Part shown: in pieces, positions 11,273-15,132 of the stretch
Numbering within the stretch: position 1 is the first letter of the stretch
Layout of the letters: each line of letters opens with the position of its first letter
Assembly (NCBI GenBank): GCA_013820755.1
Contig: JACDHZ010000005.1
Location: 1-37,944, forward strand
Length of the DNA: 37,944 bases
Source of the DNA: Chthoniobacterales bacterium
GTDB taxonomy: Bacteria; Verrucomicrobiota; Verrucomicrobiia; Chthoniobacterales; UBA10450
Direction: 5' to 3'
Made by a program: the position numbers and the translations under genes
The notes under the pieces: model-generated
Told to the model about the DNA's origin: nothing
The model's database searches: none
Seen by the model: only the letters and a program-made list of their open reading frames with translations

Positions 11273-12628
11273 ATGAGCAAAGTTTACTCCGATCCCACCG
11301 CTGCCCTTGACGGCCTCCTCCACGACAACATGACGATCGCGGCGGGCGGATTCGGGCTTTGCGGCATCCCGGAGAATCTCATCGCCGCGTTGCGCGACAG
11401 CGGCGTGAAGGGGCTCACCATCGTGGGCAACAACGCGGGCGTGGATGGCTTCGGCATGGGCGTGCTGCTCACGACGCGGCAGGTGAAGAAGGTGATGGCT
11501 TCCTACGTGGGCGAGAACAAGGAATTCGAGCGCCAGGTGCTGTCGGGCGAGCTCGAGCTGGAGCTCATCCCGCAGGGGACGCTGGCGGAGCGATTGCGCG
11601 CGGGCGGCGCGGGGATTCCGGGGTTCTACACGCGCACGGGGTTCGGCACGAAGTTGACCGAGGGCAAGGAGACGAAGGCGTTCGACGGCAAGGAATACGT
11701 GCTGGAGCCGGGGATCACTGCCGACGTGTCGCTCGTGAAGGCGTGGAAGGGAGACAAATCCGGAAATCTCATCTACCGCAAGACCTCGCGGAACTTCAAC
11801 CCAATGATTGCGACGATCGGCAAAGTCTGCGTCGCCGAGGTGGAGCAACTTGTCGAGGTCGGCGAGCTAGACCCCGACCAGATCCACACCCCCGGCATCT
11901 ACGTTGATCGCATCATCCAAGGTGCCAGCTACGAGAAGCGGATTGAGTTCCGGACGGTGCAGGGAACCGCTGCGTCGAAGAAGGAGTCGCCGATTCGTCA
12001 GGTGATGGCGAAGCGTGCCGCGCAGGAGTTGCGCGACGGCTATTACGTCAATCTCGGGATCGGCATTCCGACGCTCGTGGCCAATTTCATTCCCGAAGGC
12101 ATGAACGTGACGTTGCAGTCGGAGAACGGCTTGCTAGGCATCGGGCCGTTTCCCACTGAAGACACGGTCGACCCCGATCTGATCAACGCCGGCAAACAGA
12201 CGATTACCGAGACGCCGGGTTCGGCCTACTTCTCGAGCGCTGATTCGTTCGCGATGATCCGCGGCGGGCACATTGATCTGGCGATCCTCGGCGCGCTCGA
12301 GGTGGCGGACAACGGCGACATCGCGAACTGGATGGTGCCCGGAAAGATGGTGAAAGGACCCGGCGGCGCGATGGATCTCGTCGCCGGCGTGAAGCGCGTG
12401 GTGGCGGTGATGGAGCACGTGGCGAAGGACGGCAGCCCGAAGATTCTCAAACAATGCACGCTCCCGATCACCGGACTCGGCGTGGTGAACCTGATCATCA
12501 CGGATCTGTGCGTTTTCGAGGTGAAGGACGGGGACGGGCTGGTGCTGACCGAACTGCATCCTGGTGTGACCGAAGAGGACATCCGCGCCAAAACCGGCGT
12601 GCCCTTCAAAGTCGCGCTGAAGCGGTGA
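11273..12628 (+). CDS. Fused 3-oxoacid CoA-transferase (SCOT-type, A and B subunits)
   Basis: The 451-residue protein carries both halves of a family I CoA-transferase in one chain. The A half (about 1-235) has GGFGLCGIPE and NNAGVDGFGMG. The B half (about 238-451) has LGIGIPTLVANFIPEG and the SENGLLGIGP box with the catalytic glutamate E284. It moves CoA from succinyl-CoA to acetoacetate (or a related 3-oxoacid) through a glutamyl-CoA intermediate. In many bacteria the subunits are separate genes (scoA/scoB, atoD/atoA); here they are fused as in mitochondrial SCOT. Acetoacetate is also the end product of tyrosine degradation via HppD at 23240. A 5' fragment of this gene lies upstream at 10302. 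Confidence 0.93.
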   Translation: MSKVYSDPTAALDGLLHDNMTIAAGGFGLCGIPENLIAALRDSGVKGLTIVGNNAGVDGFGMGVLLTTRQVKKVMASYVGENKEFERQVLSGELELELIPQGTLAERLRAGGAGIPGFYTRTGFGTKLTEGKETKAFDGKEYVLEPGITADVSLVKAWKGDKSGNLIYRKTSRNFNPMIATIGKVCVAEVEQLVEVGELDPDQIHTPGIYVDRIIQGASYEKRIEFRTVQGTAASKKESPIRQVMAKRAAQELRDGYYVNLGIGIPTLVANFIPEGMNVTLQSENGLLGIGPFPTEDTVDPDLINAGKQTITETPGSAYFSSADSFAMIRGGHIDLAILGALEVADNGDIANWMVPGKMVKGPGGAMDLVAGVKRVVAVMEHVAKDGSPKILKQCTLPITGLGVVNLIITDLCVFEVKDGDGLVLTELHPGVTEEDIRAKTGVPFKVALKR

Positions 12629-12636
12629 CTCTAAGC

Positions 12637-12713
12637 AATGTGGGAGGAGCCTTAGCGCCCCGATTTAGGGGATAGCCGCGGGGAAATCGGGGCACTAAGG
12701 CCCCTCCCACATT
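12637..12713. repeat. REP-like hairpin, family A, copy 1 (downstream of RAYT)
   Basis: Long inverted repeat: left arm aatgtgggaggagcctta, core cgccccgattt, right arm aaatcggggc then taaggcccctcccacatt. It lies between the convergent CoA-transferase and RAYT genes, 8 nt beyond the RAYT stop codon. The same arms recur at 13231, 14973 (half) and 15064. Confidence 0.92.
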
Positions 12714-12721
12714 GGGCTCGC

Positions 12722-13672
12722 TCAGTCATACATCAGCGGCCAGGGATCAGTGACCGCCTCCTTGCAGACAGCACTGCTTGCATCCCACTGCTCCGGTAGG
12801 TCCACGAATCCTTTCACCACGGGATTCTGCTCAATGTAGCGAGCAACGTACTCAAACTGCCTCGCCGTTTTGAGGTGCGTATCGTAGTAGCCGTCTTGCC
12901 AAGCCGTGCCATGCGTGCTGAGGACTCGATCAGTTTTTTGACCCACAAAGCTCATCATGGCGTGCATGAACTTGGGGAGCGTCCACGGCTCGCGCAGAGC
13001 GACGAGCGCATGCCAATGATCCGGCATCACGACAAAGGCGCGGAGGTGAATGCGTTCGTATTGCACGGCGAAACGGAAGGCAGAGACAATGACCGCGCGT
13101 GCCTCCGCGTCGAGCACAGGCTTCTTCGGCAGCAGCGACTTCGTGACAAAGAAAGTTGCTGATACATCACTCCAGCGATGCAAGCGCAGGTTCTTGGAAT
13201 GTGGAGCAGAAGGACGTGGGATCTGCCTTAAATGTGGGAGGGGCCTTAGTGCCCCGATTGGTGGGCTTATAATGTCTTGCGCGTTTGCCTTACCTGAAGA
13301 TCGGGGCACTGAGGCCCCTCCCACATTAAGAGCCGTCGGGACGGGCGTCTCGAAGTAGAGATGACGATGGCTGGCGCATCTGGGATTGAACCCTTGGCGA
13401 CAGCGCGGGCAAGTTGACTTGCAATCGAGATACTCGCGGACGGTCAGTTCATGCCCGCAAGCGCCGCACAGAACGGCCGGCGTGTCGAACTGCTCGTTAG
13501 GCCAAACTCTCGACACGTGTCCGGCGAGCTCGGCGTGGCATTCGTAACACGGGAACCACTTCTCGCAGCAGGCGAACTTGATCGCGATGATATCGGTTTC
13601 GCCAGAGTAATGAGCGCACCGGGTTTGATCATCCACCCCCACACCTTTGACGTCCACGTTGTGAATCTTCAT
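12722..13672 (-). CDS. CHY zinc-finger protein fused to REP-associated tyrosine transposase (RAYT)
   Basis: One uninterrupted frame encodes two unrelated parts. Numbered from the upstream ATG at 13696, residues 9-117 are a CHY-type zinc finger with CAHY, ACCEKWFPCYECH, CGACGHE, CPRCRQGFNPRC and a final HRHLYF, where such proteins normally end. Residues 124-156 are translated from a family A REP hairpin (13231-13327). Residues 170-320 are an IS200-like Y1 transposase of the RAYT type, with the HUH motif at MPDHWHAL (H227, H229) and the catalytic tyrosine probably Y287 in ARYIEQNPV. No ATG or GTG precedes the transposase part after the repeat, only a TTG (residue 172). ATG 13672 is preferred because 13696 overlaps the MFS gene. 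Whether the product is one fused chain is not known. Confidence 0.85.
   Translation of the reverse strand: MKIHNVDVKGVGVDDQTRCAHYSGETDIIAIKFACCEKWFPCYECHAELAGHVSRVWPNEQFDTPAVLCGACGHELTVREYLDCKSTCPRCRQGFNPRCASHRHLYFETPVPTALNVGGASVPRSSGKANAQDIISPPIGALRPLPHLRQIPRPSAPHSKNLRLHRWSDVSATFFVTKSLLPKKPVLDAEARAVIVSAFRFAVQYERIHLRAFVVMPDHWHALVALREPWTLPKFMHAMMSFVGQKTDRVLSTHGTAWQDGYYDTHLKTARQFEYVARYIEQNPVVKGFVDLPEQWDASSAVCKEAVTDPWPLMYD
13231..13327. repeat. REP-like hairpin, family A, copy 2 (inside the CHY-RAYT frame)
   Basis: Arms aatgtgggaggggcctta and taggcccctcccacatt-like (here gaggcccctcccacatt) flank an unusually long central spacer (about 35 nt). The whole element is open in the CHY-RAYT frame and so is translated. 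Together with the copy at 12637 it brackets the transposase part on both sides, the usual arrangement of a RAYT gene and its REP substrates. Confidence 0.92.
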
Positions 13673-13682
13673 CGCCACGCGC

Positions 13683-14972
13683 TCACGCTGCGGCACGCTC
13701 GCGCGGACATAGCAGCACGAGGAGTGACGCGATGATCCAGCACGCGATCATGAAAACGAATCCGGCCTCAAACGAGCCGGTCCGCTGGCTTAAGGTGCCA
13801 ATTATCTTCGGTCCGAAAAAACCTCCGACGCTGGCGATGCAGCTGATGAACCCAACCACGGCAGCCGCCGCCGAAGCCGTGAGAAATGAATCGGGCAGCG
13901 CCCAGAACGCCGGCAAATAGGCGCTCGTGCCGAAAATCACCAGCGAAAATATGATGACGAGTCCTGCGTTCGATTGCGGCAGGAAGAACCACGCGCCGAG
14001 AGCAAGCGCCGCAGTCAACTGCGGAATGGCGAAATGCCATCGGCGTTCGCCGGTGCGATCTGAATTCCAGCCGATCAGCAGCATTCCAATCAGGCCTACG
14101 ATGAACGGAATCGATCCTATCCACCCGATGCGCTGCACGTCCGTCCAACCGGTGAGCCGCTGGAGCATGGTTGGCATCCAGAACCAAAAGGCGTAGCCAC
14201 CGGAGTAGCAGAACAATAACCCGGCAGCTAGCAGCACGACCGGCTGCTGCCGGAGCGCCTGCGACATCGTCATGTGCTCTACGTCGGCCTTCGCGCGGCG
14301 CTCCCCGGCGAGGCGGGCCGCCAGCCAAGCGCGTTCCTCAGCGGGCAGCCAATGCGCTTCACCGGGTCGATCGGGCAGCACGAAAAGAGTCACGATTCCG
14401 AGCAACACCGCCGGCGCGCCTTCCAGCAGGAAAAGCCAGCGCCATCCAGGAATGCCGAGCCAGTGGACGCCGAGGATCGCGCCCGCAAGAGGTCCGCTTA
14501 GGATGTAGGCGATCGGGATCGCGGCCATAAATCGCGCCATCGCCTTTGCTCGGTCCTGGAGAACGAACCAGTGAGAGAGATAAACAATGACGCCGGGGAA
14601 AAATCCTGCTTCCGCTGCACCAAGCAGAAATCGCGCGCCATAAAGCTCGTGCGGAGTGCGAACCAGACCGGTGAGCGCGGTTAATACGCCCCATGTTATC
14701 AGCGTAATCGCGAGCAGCAGCCTGGCGCTCCATCGTTCCACCAGAAGTGCGCCGGGAATTTGCAGCAAAAGATAACCGATGAAGAAAATCCCGCTCGCCG
14801 TGCCGAACACGGAGTCAGTCAGGCCAAGGTCCCCTTTCATCCCGAGCGTCGCGTAGGCGATGTTCGTGCGGTCCAGATAGTTTGCGACGTAGAGGAGGAA
14901 CAGGAACGGCAGAAGCCGCCACGCGATGCGACTACGTGCCGTTGCTCCTGTCTCTGTCAGCGAGGAAGCCAT
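13683..14972 (-). CDS. MFS transporter, anion:cation symporter (ACS)-like family
   Basis: The 429-residue protein has the 12-helix major facilitator pattern in two six-helix halves with a charged central loop around residues 205-235. The first helix ends in YVANYLDRTNIAYA, a motif typical of the ACS/tartrate-phthalate transporter branch, and GAAEAGFFPGVIVYLSHWF in helices 4-5 is also characteristic. GWNSDRTGERRWH is the second-half loop motif. Substrates of the branch are organic anions such as tartrate, hexuronates or aromatic acids; which one cannot be told. Its ATG (14970-14972) directly abuts a half copy of the REP repeat. The CHY-RAYT gene begins 10 nt after its stop. Confidence 0.9.
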   Translation of the reverse strand: MASSLTETGATARSRIAWRLLPFLFLLYVANYLDRTNIAYATLGMKGDLGLTDSVFGTASGIFFIGYLLLQIPGALLVERWSARLLLAITLITWGVLTALTGLVRTPHELYGARFLLGAAEAGFFPGVIVYLSHWFVLQDRAKAMARFMAAIPIAYILSGPLAGAILGVHWLGIPGWRWLFLLEGAPAVLLGIVTLFVLPDRPGEAHWLPAEERAWLAARLAGERRAKADVEHMTMSQALRQQPVVLLAAGLLFCYSGGYAFWFWMPTMLQRLTGWTDVQRIGWIGSIPFIVGLIGMLLIGWNSDRTGERRWHFAIPQLTAALALGAWFFLPQSNAGLVIIFSLVIFGTSAYLPAFWALPDSFLTASAAAAVVGFISCIASVGGFFGPKIIGTLSQRTGSFEAGFVFMIACWIIASLLVLLCPRERAAA

Positions 14973-14998
14973 AATGTGGGAGGGGCCTTAACGCCCCG
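14973..14998. repeat. REP family A half-element at the MFS start codon
   Basis: Only one arm and the core (aatgtgggaggggcctta then acgccccg) are present. The element starts on the base next to the MFS ATG, so on the minus strand it supplies the last 26 nt of the leader; read that way, the sequence before the ATG is cccctcccacatt, which has no ribosome-binding site. Confidence 0.8.
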
Positions 14999-15063
14999 CG
15001 GCCGCTGGCGGTGCAGACTAATGCGCCGCCACTAACCCTCACAATGTGAATGTGAAGCGGCTC

Positions 15064-15132
15064 AATGTGGGAGGGGGCCTTAGCGCCCGATCTCATAACG
15101 GGAAATCGGGGCGCCGAGGCCCCTCCCACATT
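15064..15132. repeat. REP-like hairpin, family A, copy 4
   Basis: Complete inverted repeat aatgtgggagggggcctta to gaggcccctcccacatt with the core gcgcccgat and atcggggcgc. It lies in the 282-nt gap between the divergent MFS and acyl-CoA dehydrogenase genes, whose remaining sequence shows no recognisable feature. Confidence 0.92.

Follow-up and report, generated by a model that had tools for sequence, protein, structure and literature searches.

A minus-strand open reading frame in the window, the whole 37,944-nucleotide stretch that was analysed, joins a CHY zinc finger to a RAYT transposase through a translated REPIN. The best explanation, to which we assign a probability just above one half (about 0.52), is that a single-copy REPtron inserted before the stop codon of the CHY gene and captured its translation, with the CHY domain carried along as a passenger whose constraint is relaxed. 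The window corresponds to contig C223 in the 3.0 Mb draft assembly (MAG; 316 contigs, 92% complete) of a Verrucomicrobiota host of the Spartobacteria/Chthoniobacterales type. The reading frame (12722-13672, minus strand; 316 codons) is uninterrupted from the ATG at 13672 to the TGA at 12722-12724. As proposed in the preliminary description, it encodes a CHY domain, 33 codons made by a REP element, and a Y1 transposase with intact HUH and tyrosine motifs. Pfam located zf-CHY at residues 19-81 (E 2.5e-11; 44.2 bits for a cut-off of 31.3) and Y1_Tnp, also above its cut-off, at residues 183-283 (E 8.3e-10). The RAYT part matched the NCBIfam model REP_Tyr_transpos NF047646 (83.3 bits for a cut-off of 80), and alignment to E. 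coli TnpA-REP (4ER8) identified the HUH motif as H219-W220-H221 and the catalytic tyrosine as Y279, within YIEQNP. The cysteine and histidine columns of zinc ligands are retained in the CHY part, as checked by inspection of the alignment. An AlphaFold2 model of the fusion, obtained with one partner sequence as input, had a pLDDT of 33 and was uninformative. The Rfam search returned no match, and a promoter scan detected no signal above chance near the locus. The MFS gene ends about 10 nt before the CHY ATG, on the same strand. The features of the locus are collected in Table 1.

Table 1. Features of the CHY-RAYT locus (positions in the window) and host proteins with in-frame RAYT cassettes (locus identifiers).
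Feature	Position or loci	Strand	Basis
CHY zinc-finger part, residues 1-108	13349..13672	-	Pfam zf-CHY; orthologs' own stop immediately follows YFE
Native CHY tail, residues 109-115 (TPVPTAL)	13328..13348	-	Joined flanks
REPIN (REP, 41-nt loop, inverted REP) forming the linker, residues 116-148	13231..13327	.	Sequence, folds
GGAGG within the REP (13317-13321) followed by in-frame GTG122 (13307-13309), candidate internal start of the RAYT	13307..13321	-	Sequence reading
Degenerate former RAYT start, GTC	13213..13215	-	Upstream sequences compared by eye
RAYT part, residues 156-316 and stop	12722..13207	-	NF047646, 4ER8 alignment, similarity to G011 RAYT
REPIN 3' of RAYT	12637..12714	.	Sequence, fold
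Displaced CHY stop TAG, far side of insert	12631..12633	-	Joined flanks
MFS transporter upstream of CHY	13683..14972	-	Pfam MFS_1; syntenic in relatives
CoA-transferase, convergent neighbour	11273..12628	+	Pfam CoA_trans; syntenic in relatives
RecG	L064, L067-L069, L090-L092, L096-L098		
MetH	L082-L085		
AlaRS	L051, L089, L094		
LeuRS	L086, L087		
ValRS	L065, L066		
ThrRS	L059		
ClpB	L070		
Sua5/TsaC	L053		

The linker is encoded by a 97-nt REPIN (13231-13327), which corresponds exactly to 33 codons (residues 116-148) and contains no stop codon in the CHY frame. Folding of the RNA from positions 13220 to 13340 gave -65.1 kcal/mol (z -9.05), and folding of the REPIN as DNA gave a z of -9.66. 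On the other side, where a REP had been located at 12637, the locus is closed by a second REPIN (12637-12714), the RAYT lying between inverted REP-like repeats. With a 25-nt REP arm and up to three mismatches, nine copies were detected in the 3.0 Mb assembly, six of them inside the window. The reversed arm, used as a control, gave no copies in the same assembly, and none was expected by shuffling of the window. The abundant population of cognate REPs that is usual, albeit not universal, for RAYTs was not found, the count being nine arms in an assembly that is 92% complete. The GTAG tetranucleotide is absent from the foot of the REPs, whose arms read AATGTGGGAGGGGCCTTAGTGCCCCGATT. A further, diverged REPIN pair is present at 14973-15132, upstream of the MFS gene and between this gene and a divergent acyl-CoA dehydrogenase gene.

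Five relatives (G001, G003, G023, G008, and G031), of which G001 and G003 belong to the same genus as the window genome, display the gene order MFS, CHY, convergent CoA-transferase with no insert. Their CHY orthologs have their own stop, at most three codons past the conserved YF[E/D/A]. The gap between the CHY and CoA-transferase genes comprises tens of bases in most of these genomes and about 240 in G003. These relatives provide the CHY gene without the REP, and their empty sites bear out the proposal that a REP-ended element landed at the 3' end of this gene. Joining the window flanks at AATG...CATT yielded YFETPVPTALA followed by TAG. Thus, the insertion point lies ahead of the CHY stop, which now stands at 12631-12633; this codon, said earlier to have been removed by the insertion, was displaced, not deleted. 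Among 30 genomes, four states of the locus were observed: MFS-CoAT, MFS-CHY-CoAT, MFS-RAYT-CoAT, and the fused state of the window. CHY is an accessory gene, found in 10 of the 213 genomes of the order. In G001, the CoA-transferase N-terminus occurs a second time, as a partial copy just upstream of the full gene (L040:5307-5444).

Close orthologs of the RAYT were found in 11 of the 83 genomes of the family, including that of the window, with one strong match in each (E at most 1e-25). The RAYT is single-copy in each of these genomes, with no sign of self-multiplication. The RAYT part of the window is 83% identical to the RAYT of G011, which is located, as in G068, at the 3' end of the MFS gene with no adjoining CHY gene. 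In G026, G063, G076, G093, G103, G072, and G015, the RAYT lies in the same neighbourhood, near the 3' end of a gene labelled by eye as methylmalonyl-CoA-mutase-like; the RAYT of G015 is frame-shifted. Single inverted REPs border the RAYTs of G011 and G026. A full REPIN precedes the RAYT in the window only; in nine out of ten relatives, a single 5' REP is followed by an ATG or GTG some 4-12 nt on. The GTG start of G011, G068, and G069 reads GTC in the window, with one nucleotide fewer downstream.

In the latter three relatives (loci L009, L074, and L075), the REP tail lengthens the MFS protein by NVGGASVPRPT, and the TGA ending this extension overlaps the RAYT GTG (GTGA), an arrangement that looks like translational coupling. 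The RAYT of G069 is separated by about 4 kb from the REP on the CoA-transferase side (G069:C25:44234-48946), as if another element had landed inside. A long open frame at the RAYT of G068 (381 aa) was considered as a fusion and rejected, since it corresponds to the MFS gene read in another frame. The search for further CHY-RAYT fusions revealed none in the 83 family genomes, searched by RAYT, and none in the other nine CHY-bearing genomes of the order.

The comparison with relatives also bears on the integrity of the junction. The MAG is fragmented into 316 contigs and the REP arms are repeated, so that CHY and RAYT might have been joined across a REP by an assembly or binning error. However, the order MFS-RAYT-CoAT was obtained independently in G011 and G068, as was MFS-CHY-CoAT in five other genomes, and the REPINs in the window are not identical, having in common only arms of about 28 nt. 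We consider such an artefact extremely unlikely.

The in-frame start codons remaining in the fused frame are the CHY ATG, GTG117 and GTG122, both within the REP, and TTG164. The RAYT is in frame from the CHY ATG and its own start is lost, an organization that would place the transposase under the translation start of CHY, as initially proposed. A TTG had also been put forward as a separate RAYT start. This codon does exist (residue 164 in the numbering from the ATG), but it has no Shine-Dalgarno-like sequence, and GTG122, with GGAGG 7 nt upstream, is the better candidate. Judging from these signals, GTG122 could start the RAYT separately from within the REP, and both products may be made. This leads to a serious rival explanation, in which the open reading frame is continuous but the RAYT is mainly produced separately, as a protein of about 195 residues initiated at the REP-borne GTG122, a site that ribosomes translating CHY may open. 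The GGAGG and GTG122 are suitably placed in the RAYT frame, and the REP-borne GTG that opens a mini-ORF in G011, G068, and G069, with its TGA overlapping the RAYT GTG, suggests that REPs can feed RAYT translation. In the window, however, the Shine-Dalgarno sequence and GTG122 are both paired in the -65.1 kcal/mol hairpin and, since CHY has no stop of its own, any full translation of CHY yields the fusion. We regard predominantly separate production of the RAYT as unlikely, although it carries real weight.

Pairwise dN/dS values for the RAYT part were 0.09-0.20 for pairs involving the window genome versus 0.07-0.18 for other pairs. Changes unique to the window genome comprised 17 nonsynonymous and 20 synonymous substitutions in the RAYT, versus 34 and 41 in relatives (p=1), and 28 nonsynonymous and 7 synonymous substitutions in CHY, versus 32 and 28 in relatives (Fisher p=0.015); these counts are small and cover time both before and after the fusion. 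Comparison of the window-unique changes in the CHY and RAYT parts of the same gene gave p=0.004. On the window branch, these substitution patterns suggest that the transposase is constrained and the zinc finger relaxed. Purifying selection on the RAYT together with relaxation of CHY argues for a REPtron capturing the translation of a host gene, rather than for a new DNA-targeting protein.

The same data bear on two other explanations. A selected bifunctional protein, in which CHY would alter the partner of the RAYT, zinc sensing, or DNA targeting, would account for the conservation of motifs in both domains. Nonetheless, CHY is the relaxed half, no second occurrence was detected in the 83 family genomes or among the 10 CHY genomes of the 213, and the known CHY function that we found is peptide binding, the CHY domain of Pirh2 taking part in the binding of a peptide degron (PMC10148881). 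We found no support for CHY as a nucleic-acid module, and the suggestion that the fused zinc finger modifies nucleic-acid targeting is not upheld; of the mechanisms considered, a bifunctional targeting protein has the weakest support, and we regard it as very improbable. Alternatively, the locus may be a passive relic heading to decay, poorly expressed as the hairpin blocks expression or is cleaved, with the CHY function lost. The CHY branch ratio near 1, the strong hairpin in the open reading frame, the loss of the RAYT start, and the presence of the fusion in one genome only are all compatible with this possibility. It is at variance with the RAYT part being intact and under normal constraint, and with the CHY ligand columns being kept. 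Decay of a relic is accordingly a doubtful explanation in our assessment.

The preferred explanation, capture of CHY translation by a REPtron, would involve the following steps. A REPtron (a RAYT between REP or REPIN ends) from a lineage resident in this Verrucomicrobiota family would have entered the small gap between the CHY and CoA-transferase genes. The RAYT would have been, or have become, in the CHY frame and, the REPIN being free of stops, translation of CHY would continue into it. The RAYT start would then have decayed because the CHY start serves. Transcription of the MFS-CHY operon and read-through of the hairpin would drive production of a CHY-linker-RAYT protein, whose RAYT domain would keep its role as a REP-specific single-strand nuclease, with CHY as a probable passenger. 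We counted against this explanation the -65 kcal/mol hairpin within the open reading frame, the Shine-Dalgarno sequence and GTG in the REP, the occurrence of the fusion in one MAG only, and the fact that falling in frame by chance is not rare, as roughly a third of insertions would do so before stops are considered.

REPtrons, or RAYT (TnpA-REP) genes flanked by REPs or TIRs, have been described (Nunvar 2010, PMC2817692; De Nocera 2013, PMC3733652; 2018 HuH survey, PMC6006769). The window element resembles them by its single-domain HUH-Tyr transposase, its single copy, its flanking inverted palindrome-bearing repeats, and its location at gene 3' ends, between convergent genes. It differs from them by the absence of the GTAG tag, by its low REP copy number, and by the absence of a RAYT start in CHY-RAYT, the transposase being the C-terminal part of a host open reading frame. 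Intragenic REPs that are translated in frame are known from several bacteria, Opitutus terrae and Rickettsia among them, and a little over 10% of these repeats lie at the ends of coding regions (PMC3733652). In-frame REPs are also known inside tnpA-REP genes, and the 2018 HuH survey states that it set aside proteins that were longer than expected owing to fusions or annotation errors (PMC6006769). Like REP-decorated proteins and Rickettsia palindromic elements, CHY-RAYT has palindromic repeats that are inserted in frame and translated, in some cases at the end of the coding region. In those proteins the addition amounts to 20-80 residues of repeat, whereas CHY-RAYT includes the entire transposase gene in frame. 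CHY-RAYT is a variation on an already known kind of element, and the fusion is present in no other genome searched.

A more interesting result than CHY-RAYT, which deserves its own study, is the pattern of RAYT cassettes present in frame, in this bacterial order, inside CarB, RecG, MetH, AlaRS, LeuRS, ValRS, ThrRS, ClpB, and Sua5/TsaC (Table 1). In these Verrucomicrobiota relatives, the housekeeping proteins are full-length and the RAYT domains embedded in them are flanked by REP-coded peptides. The RAYT part of the scanned ThrRS and RecG examples was detected by NF047646 or by similarity, and Pfam missed it at the threshold used. The genome of the window itself harbors a REP-RAYT-REP cassette inside CarB (L049, G000:C140:3711-4490), in a frame of 1338 codons; the cassette ends are 49-nt inverted repeats, 84% complementary. 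The CarB cassette was detected in 14 of the 112 genomes of the order with a match, same-genus relatives being empty, and always at the same site, between IVEEAEELR and RRAKKLGFSDRQ. In the tree of the CarB-cassette transposases, grouping was rejected for the three genomes of g3 (AU p=1.7e-5) and for the three genomes of g4 (AU p=4.5e-4), which are clades with full support in the CarB tree. This conflict is compatible with a single coding site at which cassettes were inserted, or replaced, more than once. In G030, the frame of a HisC-like aminotransferase continues uninterrupted into a RAYT whose own ATG is retained (L093:1306-3450), providing a second C-terminal host-RAYT fusion. Together, the in-frame cassettes in many host proteins and the HisC-RAYT fusion indicate that host reading frames do take up RAYTs. 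The long frames at L099, L100, and L101 were rejected as embedded cassettes, L100 being a RAYT that precedes a cytochrome c gene, and L088 is a tandem RAYT pair.

Inteins are in-frame elements found in essential enzymes at one fixed site, with a patchy distribution that does not track the tree of the host gene. The CarB cassettes share each of these properties. Unlike inteins, they contain no recognised splicing domain and are presumably retained in the host protein; CHY-RAYT also differs from inteins in being terminal, not internal. Comparison of these loci suggests that REP-RAYT cassettes of the Spartobacteria/Chthoniobacterales type may live in frame in host proteins, many of them essential, being translated along with them and left unspliced, and may repeatedly enter the CarB site in an intein-like manner, CHY-RAYT being one outcome of this lifestyle; we hold the odds of this broader proposal to be even. 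In the open papers that were searched, we found no description of host enzymes carrying an entire RAYT gene in frame.

RAYTs are considered to be domesticated, single-domain proteins, and their expression and persistence are poorly understood. The cassettes raise the testable questions of whether in-frame RAYTs retain nuclease activity in a functioning host enzyme, and of what returns them to the same CarB codon. A RAYT that has lost its own start and rides on a host open reading frame, in an order where its sisters occur in frame in CarB, RecG, MetH, and tRNA synthetases, points to the capture of host translation as a genuine means by which RAYTs persist.
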